Source: Bacteroidia bacterium
GTDB taxonomy: Bacteria > Bacteroidota > Bacteroidia > Flavobacteriales_D > Crocinitomicaceae
DNA: 37,901 nucleotides
Direction of reading: 5' to 3'
Assembly (NCBI GenBank): GCA_030426825.1
Contig: JAUHXX010000003.1
Coordinates: forward strand, 1-37,901
How positions within the stretch are numbered: position 1 is the first letter of the stretch; each line of letters opens with the position of its first letter. Shown one piece after another: positions 10,711 through 24,277 of the stretch. The position numbers were made by a program, and so were the translations under genes. The notes below the pieces were generated by a model. It had not been told where the DNA came from. It searched no databases and worked only from the letters and a program-made list of their open reading frames with translations.

Positions 10711-12078
10711 ATGGCCAAATTAAAAACATCTTTTTTCTGTCAAAACTGTGGTGCTCAATCACCTAAATGGGTTGGTAAATGCTCCTCTTGTAATGAATGG
10801 AATACCTATGTCGAAGAAGTAATAGATAAAAAACCAAAATCTGCCACTCCTTTTTCATCCTCAACTCCACAAAGAGCTTCAAAAGCCCATAAGCTTAATG
10901 AAATTGAACAAAAAATAGAGCGAAGAATAGAATTACAAGACCATGAACTGTCTCGAGTTTTAGGCGGAGGAATGGTTCCTGGATCACTGATATTATTCGG
11001 AGGAGAACCAGGAATAGGAAAGTCAACTTTATTGTTGCAAATGGCTATTAAAGAAGCCGATAAAAAGGTTCTTTATATTTCTCGTGAGGAGAGTGAAACC
11101 CAAATAAAAATGCGTGCTGATAGAATTGGAAAAGAGAATGAAAACTGTTTTGTTTTAACCGAAACCTCCATGCAAAACGTTTTTATCCAAATTGAGGCCG
11201 TTCAACCTGATATTCTGATTATCGATTCAGTGCAAACTATGCAATCAGCACTAATAGAATCTTCACCAGGAAGCATTTCTCAGATTAGGGAATGTACCGC
11301 AGAATTGTTGCGCTACGCAAAAGAATCTGGAACCCCGGTTTTTTTAATCGGACATATAACAAAAGAGGGCTCACTTGCAGGACCAAAAGTACTGGAGCAT
11401 ATGGTAGATACGGTTCTTGTTTTTGAAGGAGATCGCAATCATGTGTATCGTATCGTTCGATCTGTTAAAAATCGATTTGGATCTACCAATGAAATAGGGA
11501 TTTATGAGATGCATGGAGCGGGCTTAAGAGCAGTAGAAAATCCGTCAGAAATATTGATTACGAACAATGAAGATGAATTATCCGGAATTTCAATCGCCTC
11601 TACCTTAGAAGGAGTTCGACCTATACTCGTTGAAGTACAAGCCTTGGTTTCAACTGCTGCCTATGGAACTCCACAAAGATCATCAACCGGATTTGACCTA
11701 AGAAGGCTGAATATGCTGCTTGCCGTACTCGAAAAAAGATGTGGTTTTAGGCTAGGCGCCAAAGACGTTTTTCTGAATATTGCAGGAGGAATCAAAGTCA
11801 ATGACCCAGCTATTGACCTTGCAGTGGTTTGTGCAATCATGTCATCCAACGCCAATATACCCATTTCAAATAAAATTTGCTTGTCAGCAGAATTGAGTCT
11901 CTCTGGAGAAGTTAGACCTGTAAATCGGATCGAACAAAGAATTTCTGAAGCAGAGAAAATGGGGTTTGAACAAATCCTTGTTTCAAAGCACAATAAGGGC
12001 ATTAAACGTTCAGACTTTGATATTGAGATTATTGAAATCGGAAAAATTGAAGAAGCAATCAAATCAATTTTCGGCTAA
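10711..12078 (+). CDS. radA: DNA repair protein RadA
   Basis: Zinc finger 'CQNCGAQSPKWVGKCSSC', Walker A 'GGEPGIGKSTLLLQ', 'SVKNRFGSTNEIG' (KNRFG motif), Lon-like C-terminal domain. Confidence 0.97.
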   Translation: MAKLKTSFFCQNCGAQSPKWVGKCSSCNEWNTYVEEVIDKKPKSATPFSSSTPQRASKAHKLNEIEQKIERRIELQDHELSRVLGGGMVPGSLILFGGEPGIGKSTLLLQMAIKEADKKVLYISREESETQIKMRADRIGKENENCFVLTETSMQNVFIQIEAVQPDILIIDSVQTMQSALIESSPGSISQIRECTAELLRYAKESGTPVFLIGHITKEGSLAGPKVLEHMVDTVLVFEGDRNHVYRIVRSVKNRFGSTNEIGIYEMHGAGLRAVENPSEILITNNEDELSGISIASTLEGVRPILVEVQALVSTAAYGTPQRSSTGFDLRRLNMLLAVLEKRCGFRLGAKDVFLNIAGGIKVNDPAIDLAVVCAIMSSNANIPISNKICLSAELSLSGEVRPVNRIEQRISEAEKMGFEQILVSKHNKGIKRSDFDIEIIEIGKIEEAIKSIFG

Positions 12079-12163
12079 ACCCTCTTCCATGTCGATTAAA
12101 GTATAGGATTTTTCGACAAGTTTATCTATCTTGCGCATCTATTTACGCGCTATTTGATTAGAT

Positions 12164-15100
12164 ATGAAAAACTTACTCTTATTCTCAGCATTGTTATTTG
12201 GTGCAACTTCTTTTTCGCAATCATGGAAAGATGTTGGAAACTATGGATTTATAAATGGTGGACCAATATATGATCACGAGATCGCAATTGCAAAAGACGG
12301 CACACCCTATGTCGCCTATTTAGATTGGAATAACTTCCCTTTCGTGCAATATTGGGATGGTTCGAATTGGATGATGATGAGTTCTCCAGTTTCTGTATCC
12401 TCTCAAGATTTAGAATTCATTGTAAAAGACGATACACTCTATTTAGGTGTAAATACTATTTCAAATAGTTATGAAGTCCATATGTATGCAGGCGGATCAT
12501 GGACTCCTTTAGATATTTCAGCTTTATCTTCTATTCCATATCAATCAGGTACGGCAAGGCTTTCAATAGATGAAAACAATGGTCAATTAACGCTGGGAAT
12601 AACTAGAGTAATTTGTTGCCTAAATTCAGGAGCACAATCAGAGGTGTATAGATGGAACGGCACGACATGGACGACCCATGGAAATACAGACTTTATCAAT
12701 ATGACTGGAGACCCAGACGCTTACGAAATTGAAGTTGTCAGCAGTGGAAATTACACCTATTATTTATCGCATCAATATGATTTTGGAGGCTCAATGCCTG
12801 TAAAACCTGGAACAGGCGGAAATGGCGCAAGTGATATTCTGACCGACAGGGACAACAGTGGTACTGAGGATATCAGACTTTATTATATAGATGAGAGCTC
12901 GCCAGTCACTTGGACAGTTATTCAAAATGGTCCAGACGACTGGATTGCAAACGAATTAGATTTAATTGCTATGGATGGTCTTACAAATAAAGACCCATTT
13001 TTTGTCGCAAGAGATTTTAATGTGAGTAACAGTATAAAATCGGGCAGAACAAATGGACTTACGGGTTATTCTTTTGAAAGCTCCTATTCAGCTGCGGCCA
13101 TTATTACTGATTTAGACATTAAAGTAATGAATACCGATTCAGCTCTAGTTTTATTCAATACCCAAACAGGTTCTGGACCAACTTGCCATGTTTTAAAAGA
13201 AGAGAACGGAATATGGCAAGAATTAGGAACAGAAGTTACTACTGTTGACCAACAACAAGTTGAATTGGGAATTTCTTTTTATACCAACAAACCCTATGTT
13301 TTCTATTATGATGGATCAGCTGCAGGTGTTAGAGTGTACAATGAAGTTCCAGCTTTCGCGACAAATTCATCAGTATACCCAATTTGTGAAAATGCATTAA
13401 ACTTCACAGCTGTTGATAGTTTATTATTTTCAGATGCCGATAATGACTCATTATGGATATTCGGAGTTTCTCAAAACCAATCTTTAGTGCAAGATGCGAA
13501 TATTGATTTCACTAGACTAAACGCTTTTGACCCTGCATCTCCCAATAATTATTTTTCCATGACGTTGGATGCTGAGCCTGCAGTAACAGGAAGTTCGAAC
13601 ATTGAAGTTTATGCAACAGATGGCATAGACACTTCAATAGTTCAATTAATCCCTTTTTCAATAGTTTCACCTACTACACCTACCATTACATTGCCTTCAA
13701 ATGATTTTTGTATAAATGACGAAACAACTCTTTTATCTCCTTATGGTACGCCCCTTGGTGGAACATTTGAAGGAACTGGAATTTATGGAAACAAATTATA
13801 CCCAGAACAAGTAGCACCAGGCTCTTATCCAATTGCCTATATCTATCAAGATGTTAATGGATGTATAGATACAACTGTTACCACCATTATTATGTACGAT
13901 ATTCCTACTGTTGCTTTATCAATTGTGGATGCAAGTTGTGGAATGAATGACGGTTCAGTAACTGCTTCAACTAGTGCTGGAAATCCACCTTATACGTTTT
14001 ACTGGAGTAGCGGAGCATCAACTGAAAGTGTAAGTAATTTGGCTCCTAACATGTATTACATGAATGTTTGGGATAGCCAAGGTTGTTATGTAATGGAGGC
14101 TGCCAACGTTTCATCTTCTGGGCTTTCTCTAAGTGGTACTGTAACGGATGTAAACTGTTTTGGCGGTACAACAGGGGCAATTGATTTAACAATCTCTGGA
14201 ACGGCTCCTTACCAGATATTTTGGTCAAACGGTATAACGAGTGAAGATCTAACTGGATTGGGTGCTGGTCAATACGAAGTGTTTGTAAAAGACGCTACTG
14301 GCTGTACAACAATGATGGGATTCACTGTTGATGGTCCAAGTGAGATCAACGCAAACTTTTCTAAAACTCCAGCTACTTGCGGATTTACAGACGGTAGTCT
14401 TATGGCAGCCATTGGTGGAGGAACTCCTCCGTTAGACTTTCAATGGTATGATAATTTGGCTACGCCAATTGGCACAAACAGTGCAACACTTGGTGCTGTT
14501 GGATTCGGTCAATATAGCGTAACTGTAACGGATAATTTAGGCTGTATGGCCTCATTTAACACGGTGCTTGGAGAAGCTGGTGGACCTGTTGTTGTTCCAG
14601 TTAACGTAACGGAGGCAACATGTGCGAATGATGGTACAATTGATATGTCAATTAATACGCCATTTGGTGTTCAAAGTGTTTCATGGAATTCCGGACAAAC
14701 TACTGAAGACATAACTTCTTTGGCTCCTGGATTTTATGCCATTACAGTAGTTGACAATATGGGTTGTACAACAGTTTCATCTGTTCAATTAAATCCAGAA
14801 CTTCCAGCTACAACCGAAATTTGTGTTGTTACCGTTGATACCTCAACAAATACTAACCTTGTTGTTTGGGAAAAACCCGCATCTACAACAATCGATCATT
14901 TTAAGATTTACCGAGAATCATCAGTTGCGGGAGTTTTCCAATATGTAGACCAAGTTCCTTACGCTCTTGAATCTAGATATACAGATACCATTGCATATCC
15001 TCAACTGAGATCTTGGAGATATAAAATCGTAACGGTCAATAATTGTGGAATTGAGTCTATTCCAAGTCCAATCCATAAAACTATTCACATGGTTACAAAT

Positions 15101-15655
15101 GATGCAGGTCCAGGTCAATATCAAATTAACTGGGATGAATATGAAGGATTTGCATATCCAACATTTTATGTTTGGAGATACACAGATGTAAATGGATGGG
15201 AAGAAATTCATACGGAAGCCTTCGGAGGAACCTATCAGCACATTGATACGCCACCATCAGAAATTGATTTAGATTATATCGTTTATGTTGAACCACCTTC
15301 AATTTGTACTTCTAGCTTAAAAGCAACTGATTATAATTCTTCAAGATCAAATAAAAATGGAAGTAGTTCAGCATTCCCAGGAGATACTGACCCACAAGAC
15401 GATTCAGGGTTGGATGAAGAAAATTTATTCGTCCAGGTTTATCCGAATCCTTCAGAAGGTTTGTTTCAAATTGTCCTTAATAATGAGTCTTCATTTGATT
15501 TAGAAGTTTATGATATCTCTGGTCAGTTGATTATGCGAACTAATGCCATTTCAAATCAATTGTTATTAGATTTAACGGACTTTGCTTCTGGTTCTTATTT
15601 AGTTAAAATAAAAACTAACGAAGTCATCATTAACAAGCAGATAATCAAAAGATAA
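12164..15655 (+). CDS. T9SS-secreted SprB-repeat surface protein (paralogue 1)
   Basis: Signal peptide; propeller-like N-terminus; Ig-like and SprB-type repeats ('VTDVNCFGGTTGAIDLTISGTAPYQIFWSNGITSEDLTGLGAGQYEVFVKDATGC'); C-terminal T9SS type A domain 'VYPNPSEGLFQI ... SGSYLVKIKTNEVIINKQIIKR'. Confidence 0.88.
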   Translation: MKNLLLFSALLFGATSFSQSWKDVGNYGFINGGPIYDHEIAIAKDGTPYVAYLDWNNFPFVQYWDGSNWMMMSSPVSVSSQDLEFIVKDDTLYLGVNTISNSYEVHMYAGGSWTPLDISALSSIPYQSGTARLSIDENNGQLTLGITRVICCLNSGAQSEVYRWNGTTWTTHGNTDFINMTGDPDAYEIEVVSSGNYTYYLSHQYDFGGSMPVKPGTGGNGASDILTDRDNSGTEDIRLYYIDESSPVTWTVIQNGPDDWIANELDLIAMDGLTNKDPFFVARDFNVSNSIKSGRTNGLTGYSFESSYSAAAIITDLDIKVMNTDSALVLFNTQTGSGPTCHVLKEENGIWQELGTEVTTVDQQQVELGISFYTNKPYVFYYDGSAAGVRVYNEVPAFATNSSVYPICENALNFTAVDSLLFSDADNDSLWIFGVSQNQSLVQDANIDFTRLNAFDPASPNNYFSMTLDAEPAVTGSSNIEVYATDGIDTSIVQLIPFSIVSPTTPTITLPSNDFCINDETTLLSPYGTPLGGTFEGTGIYGNKLYPEQVAPGSYPIAYIYQDVNGCIDTTVTTIIMYDIPTVALSIVDASCGMNDGSVTASTSAGNPPYTFYWSSGASTESVSNLAPNMYYMNVWDSQGCYVMEAANVSSSGLSLSGTVTDVNCFGGTTGAIDLTISGTAPYQIFWSNGITSEDLTGLGAGQYEVFVKDATGCTTMMGFTVDGPSEINANFSKTPATCGFTDGSLMAAIGGGTPPLDFQWYDNLATPIGTNSATLGAVGFGQYSVTVTDNLGCMASFNTVLGEAGGPVVVPVNVTEATCANDGTIDMSINTPFGVQSVSWNSGQTTEDITSLAPGFYAITVVDNMGCTTVSSVQLNPELPATTEICVVTVDTSTNTNLVVWEKPASTTIDHFKIYRESSVAGVFQYVDQVPYALESRYTDTIAYPQLRSWRYKIVTVNNCGIESIPSPIHKTIHMVTNDAGPGQYQINWDEYEGFAYPTFYVWRYTDVNGWEEIHTEAFGGTYQHIDTPPSEIDLDYIVYVEPPSICTSSLKATDYNSSRSNKNGSSSAFPGDTDPQDDSGLDEENLFVQVYPNPSEGLFQIVLNNESSFDLEVYDISGQLIMRTNAISNQLLLDLTDFASGSYLVKIKTNEVIINKQIIKR

Positions 15656-15665
15656 GCGCAATTTT

Positions 15666-15703
15666 CACAAAAAATGAGGGTCATTCTACCCTCATTTTTT
15701 GTG
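15666..15703. terminator. Bidirectional rho-independent-like hairpin
   Basis: Perfect 16-bp inverted repeat cacaaaaaatgagggt (15666-15681) / accctcattttttgtg (15688-15703) with a 6-nt loop and flanking A/T runs, just after the 15655 stop. Confidence 0.85.
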
Positions 15704-15748
15704 TTCTAACCTTAACATCTTTAACTTTAGACTCTTAAAATTACCCAC

Positions 15749-18700
15749 ATGAAATACCTATTAACCATTCTAACATTCATGGCAATTAGCCATGTTCATT
15801 CACAAGCTTGGAAAGAAATTATTGCTCCTGCTCAATTCGGAACAACTGATGAACAAGAATTTACAATTCTCGACAATAATCGTCCAGTTATGGCCACGGT
15901 GCAAAACGGCTCAGGTGAACCTAAAATTTATATTTGGGACGGAATGGCTTGGCAACAAATGCCTCAAATTGTTGCAGTACCTGTTACTGATATACAAATT
16001 GACCATGACGGAACAAATCCCATTATAGGATTCTTTAATACAGTTACTGGAAAATATGAAGTGTATATATGGGATGATCCCAATTGGAATATTATAGGAG
16101 ATACGGGTATTTTACAATATCATCCAGGTTCGATTAGGATGGTAAAAAGTGCTAATCCAACTGATATTTTCTTGAACTACTCAGAATTGGCAACACAAGA
16201 TGCCTATATGAAAAAATGGGATGGTTTTTCCTGGTTATTTCATGGAGGAAGTTATGATCCTGCCTATGCAGCAATCAGCCAAGTTACACCTGGATCTCAG
16301 GGCTCCAAATTATGGGCGTTAAATCAAGATCCAGGAAACTCAGAGATCAGATTACACAGCTCAGATGAGTTTTCACCGACATGGACATATTATACAAGTT
16401 CACCAGTTGATATGGGTCCTATCTTTTCTGACATGGCTACCATTCAAGGCCAATTTCCAATAGTAAGTTATGTTTCAACGAATTCACCAGATGACATTGT
16501 CGTGAGGCAACCTGACGGCTCATTTTATACTGATTATACGCCAATTAATGTAAGTGGTGGATTTGATGAACTAAGTTGTGCGTTAGATGATGGCAATGTT
16601 CCTTACGTTTATTTCAGAGAGTCTTTATCAACAGAAGGTAAAGTAGTTAAAGATGATGGCGGTGGATCATGGATCACGGTTGGAGGGCAAGTTCATTTAA
16701 ACGGAACTGAAGGTGATCTTCAATTATTTGCACCTTCAAAAAAACCATATTTAAAATATAAAACCGATAGCAACGAACCGCGTCTAGTTGTTTACAACAC
16801 TCCTCCTTCATATGGTTCAGACTCTGGAATTCAATCCGTTTGCCAAGATGATGTAGGTGCTTCTGTTTATAGCAACATCACGTTTAACGACTCTGATCAT
16901 GACAGTTTATATATATCAGCTGTTTCAAATACACCGGGCCTAATTACTTCAGGGAACATTGTTGTTACAAGAACAAATCCTTATAACCCGTTTAGCTCAG
17001 TAAATGATTTTAAAATAGACGTCACCCCTCAATCTGGATTGACAGGTTCTGCAAATATCGATTTGCATGTTATTGATGGAATTGATACACTCACTTATCC
17101 CATTGTAGTAGTCGTAAATGGATTACCTACTGTAGGTGCTGGTGCCGATCAATCAGTTTGTGAAGGCACTGCTGTTACCCTTTCTGGTTCTGGAGCAGTT
17201 AGTTATACTTGGGACAACAGTGTTATTGACGGCTCTCCTTTTACACCTCTAGTTGGGTCTATAGTATATACCGTTACAGGAACTGACGCTAACAACTGTC
17301 AAAACACGGATATGGCTACAGTGACTGTTAATGCTAATCCGGCTTTTAGTTACGGACATGATGATGTAACCTGTAATGGACTCAATGATGGAACCCTAAA
17401 CTTAAACGGCTTAGGAGCAAGTCAAAGTTTTGACGTTTATTATGATTTAGGTTCAACAGTTGGACCTTTGAATTTAAGTTCTGACACATTTGGTGACTTG
17501 ATAGTCCCATCATTGGGACCAGGATCTTATACAAATATTCAAGTAGTTGATGCAAATGGATGTTCATTTTCCGTTCCTGGACCTGAAGTCATAATTGAGC
17601 CAAGTGTTTTAACAAGTAATCCATTGTCCGATCAATTCATTTGTGATGGTGATAATGCAACTCTCAATGGTAGTGGGGCCGGTGGAAGTCCGACTTATTC
17701 ATATAATTGGGACAATAGTGTTGTTGATGGCGTTCCTTTTTCACCTTCAGTTGGAACAGTTACTTACAATTTAACCATCACTGATGCCAATGGGTGCACT
17801 GCTCTAGACAATGTTGACATAACTGTTTATGCTCTGCCGGTTGTAGATGCTGGAGTTGATCAAACAGTATGTGATGGAACCCCTGTTACCCTAAATGGTT
17901 CTGGTGCTTCAACCTATATTTGGGACAATGGAGTGACAGACGGCAGTCCTTTTACACCCACTGTTGGTTCTTTAGTATATACCGTTACTGGAACAGACGG
18001 AAATTCTTGCCAAAACACAGATATTGTTACAGTCACCGTAAATGCTAACCCTTCATTTTCGGTTTCAACAACTAACACAACTTGTTTTGGAATCAATGAT
18101 GGATCATTAACCTTGACTGGGGTTCCAGGAGGTTTAAACTATGATGTTTATTATGATTTAGGTTCAACTGTTGGACCATTAAATTTATCAGCATCAGGAG
18201 GGGGAGATATTATTGTGACTGGACTCGGTGCTGGCTCGTATACAAACATAACTGTTATAGATGCAAGCGGGTGTTCCGGAATTCATGGTGGACCAGAAGT
18301 CATCACTCAACCCACAGCTGTCGGAAGCAACCCTATTTCGGATCAATTTATTTGTGATGGAGATGCAGTTACCCTTAACGGAAGCGGAACAGGAGGTACA
18401 CCTGGATACACTTACACCTGGGACAATGGAGTTACTGACGGAGTATCATTTTCACCTGCTGTTGGTACAATTACCTATAACTTAACGATAACAGACGCAA
18501 ACGGTTGTATCGGAACAGACAACACTGACATTACAGTTTATGCTCTTCCAGCAGTGGACGCTGGAGTTGATCAAACAGTATGTGAAAATGATCAGGTTAC
18601 TTTGAGTGGTTCAGGGGCAGTATCTTATACATGGGATAATGGAGCTATGAACGGTATCTCATTTCCAGCATTGCCGGGAGTTACAGTTTATACGGTAACC

Positions 18701-21161
18701 GGAACTGACGCCAACTCATGTCAAAATACGGATATGATGACATTGACTGTTAACTCATTGCCTACAGTTGATGCTGGTGTGGATCAGACAGTATGTTTGG
18801 GATAATGGTGTGACTGACGGAGTAGGTTTTAACCAAAGTGTAGGTTTAATTACCTATACTGTAACAGGCACAGACGCAAATGGATGTGTCAATACTGACA
18901 TGGTTGATGTCACATCAATTTCTGCACCACCTGTCTTTACAAGTTCATCCACTGATCCATTAATTTGTGGTTCAGCTACTGGGACCATTACTTTATCTGG
19001 ATTAAATGGTTCAACGACCTATGATATCTATTATGACAATCCTACAACTCAAGGTCCATTTAATATGACTTCTACTCCAGGCGGAGATATTGTACTTACC
19101 GGTTTAATTGCTGGTTCTTATTCTAACTTTAATGTTGTTGCTGGAAATGGTTGTAACGAAATACTGGCGGGGCCTGAAAACTTATCTGACCCGGCTGCAC
19201 CTACCGTAATTGCTGGATCTGATCAAACAATTTGCGAAGGTGAATCAGTAGTGTTAACAGCTACTAATCCTGACAATGCACTAATTTCTTGGGATAATTT
19301 TGTTACAGACGGAAATCCAACCTCACCAACTTCAACAACTACTTACACAGTTACGGCTAGCTCTTCTGGTTGCGTTTCAACCGATCAATTGACAATTACA
19401 GTAAATCCATTACCTTCAATTTCTTTGCTTACCAATGACGAAAACTGTGGATTGTCTGATGGATCAGCTACTGCAACAATTACGAGTGGTTTAGCACCAT
19501 ACTCTATATACTGGAGTAACGGTTCTACTTCGAACACAGCATCTAACTTATCTGCAACATTCTATTACATCAACGTCACGGATGCAAATAATTGCTATGC
19601 AATGGAAGTCGCTACAATTTCATCATCTAGTATTACTTTGTCTGGAAGTGTAACCAATAATGCATGTGTAGGAGATCAAAACGGTGCAATTGACCTTACA
19701 GTTTCTGGTACAGGCCCATTCTTATATTATTGGTCAAATGGAGCCCAAGTAGAAGATATTTCTGGATTAGCTGCTGGACAGTATGAAGTTTATGTACAAG
19801 ATGCAACTGGATGTTCTTCTACAGCCTCATTTGTGGTTACAGAGCCAAATTCCATTGTTTCAAATTACACCACTACACCGGCAACTTGCGGAGTGAATGA
19901 CGGAACAATTTCTGCTGCAATCAATGGGGGAACTTCTCCTTACACCTATCAGTGGCAAGATGAAAATCAGATTGATATTGTTGGAGCCACTGGAGCAACT
20001 TTAAATTCGGCCGGGGCGGGAATCTACTATTTAAATATAGCTGATGCAAATAACTGCACAAGCCAAATGACAACGGTGCTTTCAGAAATTGGAGCTCCAA
20101 TAGTTACAGCCGATTCTTTAATGGCTTCGACTTGTGCAAATGACGGGTTCATCAATATAAACATCAACACGACAAATACAGTTGTTTCTACTATATGGTC
20201 GTCTGGTCAAACTACAGAAGACATCACGAATATAGGAGACGGAGTATACTCAGTAACTGTTGAAGACAATAATGGTTGTATTGGTTTAGCAAGCTTTACA
20301 GTGGGGCAAATAAAACCTGCTGCAGTTCCTATTTGTATCGTAACGGTTGATTCTGTGACCAATACAAACAAAGTCATTTGGGAAAAACCTGTCGCATCTG
20401 ACATTTCTGAATTTAGAATTTATAGAGAGTCATCAATTGCGGGGTCGTTCCAATTTGTTGATGCGGTAGCATATGACTCCTTATCAGAATATAATGATAC
20501 GATTGCCTATCCTGAATTAAGATCATGGCGATATGTGTTGACAACGGTTGACACATGTGGTGTTGAATCTTTGCCAAGTGAAGATCATAAAACTATTCAT
20601 TATACAAGATCAAATGATGGGGCGGGTAATTATGAATTGTACTGGGATCAGTACGAAGGATTTACCTATCCAACTTATCATGTATGGAGACATACGGATG
20701 TCAATGGTTGGGAAGAAATCCATACAGAATTATTTGGTGGAACACTATACCTTGCAGACACGCCACCATCTGAAACCGATTTAGATTATGTGGTAATTGT
20801 TTCACCTCCTTCTATTTGTACCTCAACATCATTTAAAGCAACTGATTATAATTCTTCAAGATCAAATAAAAATGGTAGTGGAAGTGCGTTCTTTGATGGA
20901 GATGATGACTCTGGAATTGAAGAATCTACAGTTTTAGTTGATATTTTTCCAAACCCTACTAATGGCAACGTATTTATCAACCCGATAAATGTAAGTTGGT
21001 ATAATGTTGAAGTTCTTGACCTTAGAGGTCGTTCAATACTCAGTTTCTTTGATGTTTCAGGTAAATTAAAACTTGATTTATCTCCATTAGAATCTGGATC
21101 TTACATTATTCAAATAAACTCAGATTTGGGAAGTTCGAATCAGAAGATCATCAAACAATAA
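15749..21161 (+). pseudogene. T9SS-secreted SprB/Ig-repeat surface protein (paralogue 2), frameshifted at ~18790
   Basis: ORF 15749-18805 ends in the middle of a repeat ('VDAGVDQTVCLG*'). The overlapping frame (ORF 18768-21161, TTG start) resumes at 'YVWDNGVTDGVGF', continues the same repeat architecture, and ends with the T9SS domain 'IFPNPTNGNVFI...GSSNQKIIKQ'. Confidence 0.85.
17132..18553 (+). repeat. Two consecutive 711-bp (237-codon) coding super-repeats
   Basis: Unit boundaries at 'gtaggtgctggtgccgatcaatcagtttgtga' (17132), 'gtagatgctggagttgatcaaacagtatgtga' (17843) and 'gtggacgctggagttgatcaaacagtatgtga' (18554), spaced exactly 711 and 711 bp. Confidence 0.85.
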
Positions 21162-21177
21162 GATAAAAAACACATAC

Positions 21178-21207
21178 AAAAGCCTTCTTTTCACCGAGAA
21201 GGCTTTT
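21178..21207. terminator. Rho-independent terminator
   Basis: aaaagccttct / agaaggctttt stem (11 bp), 8-nt loop, T-run; between the 21161 stop and the 21262 start. Confidence 0.85.
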
Positions 21208-21261
21208 TTTGTGGGCAATATTTTTAAGAATGTCAAGTTATAAGTTTGTAAATTTGAGTCA

Positions 21262-23559
21262 ATGAAGATCGTCACCCTTTTATTAATTCTTGCGTCCAAT
21301 TTTGGTATCGCTCAATTGGCTACCTATGATTGGAGAATTCATTTTTCTTCATACAATACGGTAGGTATTGCAGAATCATCAAATGAAATCTTTATGGCAT
21401 GCGAGAATGGTCTGGTTGAATTCGACTTAGAAGATAATACTGTAGAGGTTTTGACTTCTACAAATGGACTCTCTGATTTAGGTGTTTCTGCGATTCAAGG
21501 AAATGGTGACAATGTTGTTGCTGTTGGCTATGCAAATGGCAATGTTGACATCATAGAAGGCAATACAATTATCAATATCCCGTGGATTAAAACTGCACAA
21601 ATCGCAGGCGACAAAGCTGTAAATTCGTTTTATTTTGATGAAGATTTTATCTATTGTGCAACGAATATAGGTCTCGTAATTATCGATAATCAAAAGAAAG
21701 AAATAAAAGATACTTACTATCCCTTCGACAATCCGGTAATTTTTGACATCACCATTTTTGAAGACACCATTTACTGTGCTACAAATGATGGCATCTATTA
21801 TGCCGGTAAAAACCAATCATTTTTAAATGACAAAACTCAATGGAATCATTTCTCCTCTTTGCCTTCTAACTTAGAAAATCAAAGCATCAAACAGATAGAG
21901 ACCTTTGGTAATAAAATTGTTTACCTCTATGATGATATATTATATAAAAGCGATTCCCTCTACTACATAGAAAACGGGCAATTCTATACTTATTCCGATA
22001 ATCCAAAAGAAATAAATGACATTTATGTAGATGATAATGAATTACTCATTTCTACCCTAGGAGCCTTGGAAATTTTGGATAATAATCTATCCTTAATGAG
22101 CACAATTCATTCTGTGAACGGGGAAGTACCATCCGTTTCTGGGGCTATTAAAAAAGATGACAAATACTGGTTTTCAGATGATCGTAGTGGACTCGTATCA
22201 GGAACTACGTCCTGGGATACACGCTCGTTTTACTCGAATAGTCCTTATGCTGACGGCAGTTATAGGATTGATATTCAATACGGAACCGTATTAGTTGCAG
22301 GTGGTGGACTTACCCATAACTTGCAGAATAACTTTTTCAGAAATGGCGTTTATCGGTTCAAAGATGAAACCTGGACAAACTTCAACTATGAAACTCAAGA
22401 CAGTATCAACAATGCGACAAATTGGGATTTTGTATCGGTGGTAGTTAACCCTAATAACACAGATGAACTGGCATTTGGTAGTAATTCGGCTGGGGGGCTA
22501 ATGATGGTAAAGGATGGTGAAAACGTAACAGAGGTGTATAATAATACAAACTCGGCACTAGAACTAACCGGAGGTAAAATCGCAATAGGTGATATGAAAT
22601 ATGATAGTGACGGCAATTTGTGGATTCTAAACCCTGGTGTTGAACCGTTAAAGATGTTAACTCCAGAAGGCGTATGGCATTCTTTTTCTCTTGGTGCATC
22701 TGCAAAAAACCAATACACATACAGATTACTCATTGACCAGAATAATAACAAATGGGTTACCGTAAATCAAGTAGGATTAGTCGCATTTAACGAAGGTGGA
22801 ACTTTTGATGATCCTTCTGACGATCAATTGAGAACATTATCTGCATCTGAAGGTTACGGCAATCTTCCTTCTGTATTTGTTAAATCCTTAGCAGAAGACA
22901 TAGATGGTGAAATATGGATTGGAACTGAAACGGGAATGGTGGTACTTTATAATACTGCGAATATATTTGACGGTGGGTTTGGTGATTATGATGCCAGCTC
23001 AATTCTAATTGAAGTTGATGGAGAAGTAGAAGAACTTTTGGGTGAGTCCGATATCACCGCAATTACTGTAGATGGTGGAAACAGAAAATGGATTGGGACA
23101 AGTAGTTCTGGGATATTTTGTTTGTCTCCTGACGGTACGGAAGAAATTTTTAGATATTCTAAAGAAAACAGCCCTCTTATTTCTAACAACGTATTTGATA
23201 TCAGAACTGATTTGCTCTCTGGTGAAGTTTATGTCGCCACTGAAGCAGGACTTGTTTCTGTTCGAACAGATGCTACCTTAGGCGACCCTGAATTTAGTAA
23301 TGTGAAAGTTTTCCCGAATCCGGTAAGACCGGAATATTCTGGACCAATTACAATTCAAGGCTTAGGTTATGAATCTGATGTCAAGGTCACGGATATATCC
23401 GGAAACATAGTATACAAAACGCAATCAAATGGCGGAACTGTAGTTTGGGATGGATTAACATTGAGCGGAGAAAGAGCTCAATCAGGTGTTTATTTAGTTT
23501 GGAGTGCGGTAGCTGGAGCTAAAGGTAAAAACGTAGCTAAAATTTTATTAATTAATTAA
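21262..23559 (+). CDS. porZ: PorZ-like type IX secretion system beta-propeller protein
   Basis: Signal peptide, 'WRIHFSSYNTVGIAESSNEIFMACENGLVEFDLEDNTVEVLTSTNGLSDLGVSAIQ' typical of a PorZ N-terminus, two-component-regulator-type propeller repeats, C-terminal CTD-like 'VFPNPVRPEYSGPITIQGL ... SGVYLVW'; directly followed by recO. Confidence 0.75.
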   Translation: MKIVTLLLILASNFGIAQLATYDWRIHFSSYNTVGIAESSNEIFMACENGLVEFDLEDNTVEVLTSTNGLSDLGVSAIQGNGDNVVAVGYANGNVDIIEGNTIINIPWIKTAQIAGDKAVNSFYFDEDFIYCATNIGLVIIDNQKKEIKDTYYPFDNPVIFDITIFEDTIYCATNDGIYYAGKNQSFLNDKTQWNHFSSLPSNLENQSIKQIETFGNKIVYLYDDILYKSDSLYYIENGQFYTYSDNPKEINDIYVDDNELLISTLGALEILDNNLSLMSTIHSVNGEVPSVSGAIKKDDKYWFSDDRSGLVSGTTSWDTRSFYSNSPYADGSYRIDIQYGTVLVAGGGLTHNLQNNFFRNGVYRFKDETWTNFNYETQDSINNATNWDFVSVVVNPNNTDELAFGSNSAGGLMMVKDGENVTEVYNNTNSALELTGGKIAIGDMKYDSDGNLWILNPGVEPLKMLTPEGVWHSFSLGASAKNQYTYRLLIDQNNNKWVTVNQVGLVAFNEGGTFDDPSDDQLRTLSASEGYGNLPSVFVKSLAEDIDGEIWIGTETGMVVLYNTANIFDGGFGDYDASSILIEVDGEVEELLGESDITAITVDGGNRKWIGTSSSGIFCLSPDGTEEIFRYSKENSPLISNNVFDIRTDLLSGEVYVATEAGLVSVRTDATLGDPEFSNVKVFPNPVRPEYSGPITIQGLGYESDVKVTDISGNIVYKTQSNGGTVVWDGLTLSGERAQSGVYLVWSAVAGAKGKNVAKILLIN

Positions 23560-23560
23560 G

Positions 23561-24277
23561 ATGAGTTCTGGTCAAATTGAAGGGATTGTTCTTCAAAAAA
23601 TAGACTATTCTGAAACAAGCCTCATCATCAAAATGCTCACTGAAAGTCAGGGCGTTCAGAGCTTTATTTATCAAGGAGCAAAACGGAAAAACAAAAAAGG
23701 TAACCTTATTAGTCCTTTAGCGATTTTATCTGTCAATTATTATAACCGTGGAGATAGTGATTTACTAAAAATATCATCCGTTGAACCGTCTGTGATTTAT
23801 AAAGATATTCCTTACAACCCATACAAATCTTCAATTATTTTTTTTATGAATGAAGTGTTGAATGCAACACTAAAAGACAAGGAAGAAAGTTCCGAATTAT
23901 TTACTTTTCTTAAAAGCATTTTAGAAATTTTGGATTTATCTGATGAAACAGCAAACTTTCCGATTAAATTTTTATATCAATTATCTAAGTTTCATGGGTT
24001 CTATCCGCAGTTAGATAAGGACGGTTTATATCTTGATTTACAAGAAGGTAGATACGTTAAGTATTTACCCAATCATCCTTTCTATTTATCAGAACAAAAA
24101 TCTAAATTACTTTTGGCCTTTTCGGGCACGAATTTTGATGGAGTAAATGACCCAAAAATAGATTTAGCAACACGCAGAGAATTAGTCCATGATTTACTCA
24201 ATTATTACAAGGTTCTGTTCGATAAATTCCCAGAAATTAAAAGTCTTTCAATCCTTGAAGCTACTCTGCACGATTAG
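23561..24277 (+). CDS. recO: DNA repair protein RecO
   Basis: N-terminal OB-fold pattern 'EGIVLQKIDYSETSLIIKMLTESQGVQSFIYQGAKRKNKKGNLISPLAILSVNYYNR' and overall length match the Bacteroidota RecO. Confidence 0.9.
   Translation: MSSGQIEGIVLQKIDYSETSLIIKMLTESQGVQSFIYQGAKRKNKKGNLISPLAILSVNYYNRGDSDLLKISSVEPSVIYKDIPYNPYKSSIIFFMNEVLNATLKDKEESSELFTFLKSILEILDLSDETANFPIKFLYQLSKFHGFYPQLDKDGLYLDLQEGRYVKYLPNHPFYLSEQKSKLLLAFSGTNFDGVNDPKIDLATRRELVHDLLNYYKVLFDKFPEIKSLSILEATLHD

Follow-up and report, generated by a model that had tools for sequence, protein, structure and literature searches.

In a 37,901-nt stretch of a draft Crocinitomicaceae genome (the window; the genome is G000 below), an accessory gene for a T9SS-exported adhesin, adhesin 2, probably carries a real and evolutionarily young loss-of-function deletion. 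The gene spans 15749–21161 and is split into two open reading frames, ORFa and ORFb, so that its signal peptide and its sorting domain do not lie in a single reading frame; the change of frame falls at 18792–18796. The loss, of about 47 nt within a single Ig-like repeat, would have moved the reading frame by +1. The features on which the analysis draws are the following, in window positions.

10711–12078, + strand: radA, bordering the slot on the left, 92% identical in the congener G003
12164–15655, + strand: adhesin 1, an intact tandem paralogue of 1163 aa with a signal peptide and a type A sorting domain
15749–18805, + strand: ORFa, 1018 aa, the N-terminal part of adhesin 2, with a signal peptide and Ig-like/PKD/SprB-like repeats and without a sorting domain
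17141–17331, + strand: sibling class-A Ig-like repeat A1, 16 residues from Cys to Trp
17852–18042, + strand: sibling class-A Ig-like repeat A2, 16 residues from Cys to Trp
18563–18754, + strand: sibling class-A Ig-like repeat A3, 16 residues from Cys to Trp, immediately preceding the broken repeat
18747–21161, + strand: ORFb, in the +1 frame relative to ORFa, 804 open codons, without a signal peptide
18792–18796, + strand: TATGT at the junction, where about 47 nt are absent by comparison with the sibling repeats
21178–21207, no strand assigned: inverted repeat lying between ORFb and porZ, with T following it on either strand, a probable terminator
21262–23559, + strand: porZ, a component of the T9SS, bordering the slot on the right

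Adhesin 2 is split within one Ig-like repeat

ORFa opens with MKYLLTILTFMAISHVHSQA, in which a Sec signal peptide is present as judged by eye. ORFb is bounded upstream by a TGA at 18744–18746, its earliest starts being TTG at 18768 and ATG at 18771, and it encodes an Ig_7 domain, three SprB repeats and a type A T9SS sorting domain, the last at residues 726–797 (TIGR04183/PF18962; 54.9 bits against a cut-off of 23, and 49.8 against a cut-off of 27). A preliminary description of this DNA had ended the first frame at 18805 and placed the sorting domain in a different frame; the TAA at 18803–18805 is read directly in the sequence, and it is indeed the ORFb frame that carries the domain.

The DNA at the frame change is GATCAGACAGTATGTTTGGGATAATGG, and the Cys codon of the Ig-like repeat here nearly abuts its Trp codon. 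Read in the ORFa frame, positions 18782–18805 are GAT CAG ACA GTA TGT TTG GGA TAA, and the alternative frame over the junction gives TAT GTT TGG GAT AAT GGT (Y V W D N G). Only 1 nt is left between Cys and Trp in this repeat, compared with 16 residues (48 nt) in its siblings. Because that spacing is found in all three same-class siblings (17141, 17852 and 18563) and in the G003 ortholog, we take 47 nt (2 mod 3) to be missing, which bears out the out-of-frame gap of about this size that had been described. Among 53 repeats in a wider set, Cys–Trp spacings of 16 and 21 residues are the most frequent, and a parent of the 21-residue class would give a gap of 62 nt, also 2 mod 3. Very similar Ig-like repeats, with both 16- and 21-residue Cys–Trp spacing, occur in a distant adhesin of the MAG UBA6051 (L062). 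Adhesin 2 also holds a 26-bp exact direct repeat at 17849 and 18560, 711 nt (237 codons) apart; to judge from the sequence, gain or loss of this 711-nt unit could occur without a change of frame.

T9SS cargo combines a Sec signal peptide with a C-terminal domain recognised by the T9SS (PMC12618676, PMC8545088). Because ORFa has only the Sec signal and ORFb only the sorting domain, adhesin 2 is expected no longer to be displayed at the surface. Its product would be a 1018-aa N-terminal fragment that could be exported by Sec and, lacking the sorting domain, should not be carried to the surface by the T9SS; ORFb, even were it translated, lacks a signal peptide. The C-terminal part of adhesin 1 is 48% identical to ORFb, and the presence of this intact upstream paralogue may make the loss of adhesin 2 tolerable.

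An intact ortholog occupies the same slot in a congener

The gene order in the window is radA, adhesin 1 (intact), adhesin 2 (broken), porZ and a gene at 23561–24277 that, judging by its sequence, we take to be recO. The inverted repeat at 21178–21207 probably separates ORFb from porZ, so that the break in adhesin 2 need not affect porZ. The preliminary description had called for a comparison of the locus in related strains. In the congener G003, the interval between radA and porZ holds a single intact adhesin of 1434 aa in one frame, 52% identical to ORFb; one half of it matches ORFa (window frame 2) and the other ORFb (window frame 3). A scan of genome contigs with ORFb gave no match, and one with the G003 ortholog identified G003 as an uncultured Flavobacteriales MAG. 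Together with the sibling repeats, this single-frame ortholog in the same slot supports the earlier proposal that the protein is truncated by an out-of-frame deletion.

We surveyed the slot in genomes in which radA lies next to porZ on a stretch that reaches porZ. One adhesin, of about 1593 aa, is present in G025; a 150-aa ORF stands in place of an adhesin in L063; and radA and porZ lie 72–114 nt apart with no adhesin between them in ten genomes (G001, G002, G022 and seven more, L064–L070). The radA–porZ gap, which corresponds to 12079–21261 of the window, is an accessory adhesin slot, in that it holds 0, 1 or 2 adhesin genes across genomes, with two here. A literature search on the radA–porZ–recO neighbourhood found nothing relevant.

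A short repeat may have mediated the deletion

The deletion possibly arose by mispairing at a short repeat. TATGT had been described as present on both sides of the inferred junction. A single copy does stand at the junction (18792–18796); the right-hand copy would have belonged to the parent sequence, and it is absent from that position in all three siblings, which have TATACT, TATATT and TATACA there. A right-hand TATGT requires that the parental Tyr-Val-Trp was spelled TATGTTTGG, and a parent with TATACT or TATATT would leave a junction microhomology of just 0 or 1 nt (worked by hand). Because 12 of the 53 repeats in the wider set have TATGT at the right-hand position (9 of these 12 come from one locus), its presence in the parent is possible, and TATGT microhomology at the deletion ends is plausible. 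Of random deletions of 30–70 nt in the adhesin 2 gene, 0.7% have a microhomology of at least 5 nt.

The break is young or an assembly artefact

Past the break, no stop interrupts 784 codons, although any of 332 single-base changes would introduce one; the break is therefore either young or not real. If ORFb has evolved free of selection, neutral divergence since the break is bounded (95%) at 0.027 substitutions per site when stops alone are counted; allowing for indels at 5% or 10% of the substitution rate lowers the bound to 0.016 or 0.011. A break that is not real would equally be expected to show no further decay. The reading that competes with a deletion is an artefact other than repeat collapse, such as a chimeric read, a join made in closing a gap, or an assembly path through a minority strain, with the gene intact in most cells. 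We regard such an artefact as a realistic, if doubtful, explanation. The assembly of G000 is a MAG-like draft of 402 contigs, 93.1% complete and 3.4% contaminated, and spurious frameshifts, which depend on coverage and assembler, are well documented, especially in low-coverage assemblies (PMC11017572). The composition is coding-like on either side of the break (third-position GC 0.25 and 0.24) and, as noted above, no decay follows it.

Several observations weigh against an artefact. A loss of 47 nt is unlike a homopolymer-type error, and the exact repeats at the junction are short: in a search of the window plus 21 other stretches of G000, the longest exact repeat crossing the junction is 10 bp and the longest within 18650–18950 is 13 bp. 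As repeats of 10–13 bp fall below usual assembler k-mers, a collapsed repeat, which the preliminary description had offered as an alternative, is disfavoured, and we rejected it as the cause of the gap. Nor does the assembly appear to be generally error-ridden, because no other frame break was seen among the genes matched in G003 or among the sampled sorting-domain genes. The neighbours of adhesin 2 are unbroken: the remaining window genes syntenic with G003 all match in single frames. In a check across the genome (21 stretches of G000 plus family searches), 14 of 15 sampled interior sorting-domain ORFs carry a signal peptide in frame with the domain, as scored by a crude hydrophobicity rule, and ORFb is the sole exception. 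We therefore favour a genuine deletion, and infer that it is present in cells.

The 3.6-Mb draft has a large repertoire of T9SS cargo, with about 147 sorting-domain matches above the Pfam cut-off. On contig C186 (L041, 6462–12382), two SprB-rich genes lie next to each other, one of at least 923 aa, truncated where the contig ends, and a second of 1050 aa. We considered this pair as a second broken adhesin and rejected it: the two are separate genes with similar C-terminal ends, and the second opens with its own signal-peptide-like MRLKIKHTLLLF. A 439-aa ORF on C109 was rejected as a broken sorting-domain gene as it has its own signal peptide, and sorting-domain matches on C382 and C1 that contain an internal stop were rejected because they extend beyond the gene's own stop.

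Reversal and frameshifting find little support

No tandem repeat or array was found at the site of the frame change, and no second copy of the lost segment adjoins the junction. With no tandem copy remaining there, slippage cannot restore the adhesin 2 frame, and the suggestion that the break might be reversible, as in phase variation, is left without support. A different switch can be conceived, in which a sibling repeat (A2 or A3) acts as donor for gene conversion and the frame is restored, giving a mixed population of which part shows the adhesin. The siblings, 0.2–1.6 kb upstream, do hold comparable segments, and the 26-bp direct repeat makes recombination within the gene conceivable. However, the 40 nt to the left of the junction are only 75–78% identical to the siblings, which is poor for homologous exchange, the route by slippage is closed, and no pair of intact and broken alleles was seen in the single genome of the species analysed. 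We consider this switch very improbable; were a mixed population found, gene conversion would be a route to varying T9SS surface proteins. A literature search on phase variation of SprB-type adhesins found nothing relevant. Least credible of all is a programmed +1 ribosomal frameshift that fuses ORFa and ORFb into one long product: the ORFs overlap at 18747–18802 in the direction required, but no +1 slippery site was recognised by eye in the overlap, the ortholog requires no shift, and we rejected this reading because the fused product would still be short of about 16 residues from the middle of the Ig-like repeat.

Significance and comparison with known systems

A young deletion in adhesin 2 would have little significance beyond this genome. 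It illustrates neatly how a single small out-of-frame deletion can abolish a repeat adhesin whose intact duplicate stands next to it, and it cautions that, in draft assemblies of metagenome type, a break in a repeat gene should be checked against reads before it is called a switch.

Three known systems invite comparison. Phase-variable surface genes that switch by tandem-repeat slippage are similar in that a surface gene is out of frame; adhesin 2 differs from them in having no tandem repeat at its break and hence no reversible substrate. Deletions between short direct repeats, by illegitimate recombination or slipped mispairing, likewise remove tens of nucleotides, and the adhesin 2 junction could have had a 5-nt repeat, but the second copy of that repeat is not seen in its sequence. 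Frameshift pseudogenes of T9SS repeat adhesins differ from adhesin 2 in nothing of substance, save that its break may be an artefact: they have the same domains (Por_Secre_tail, PF18962/TIGR04183; SprB repeat, PF13573; Ig_7, PF19081), and in them, too, one out-of-frame deletion parts the signal peptide from the sorting domain.
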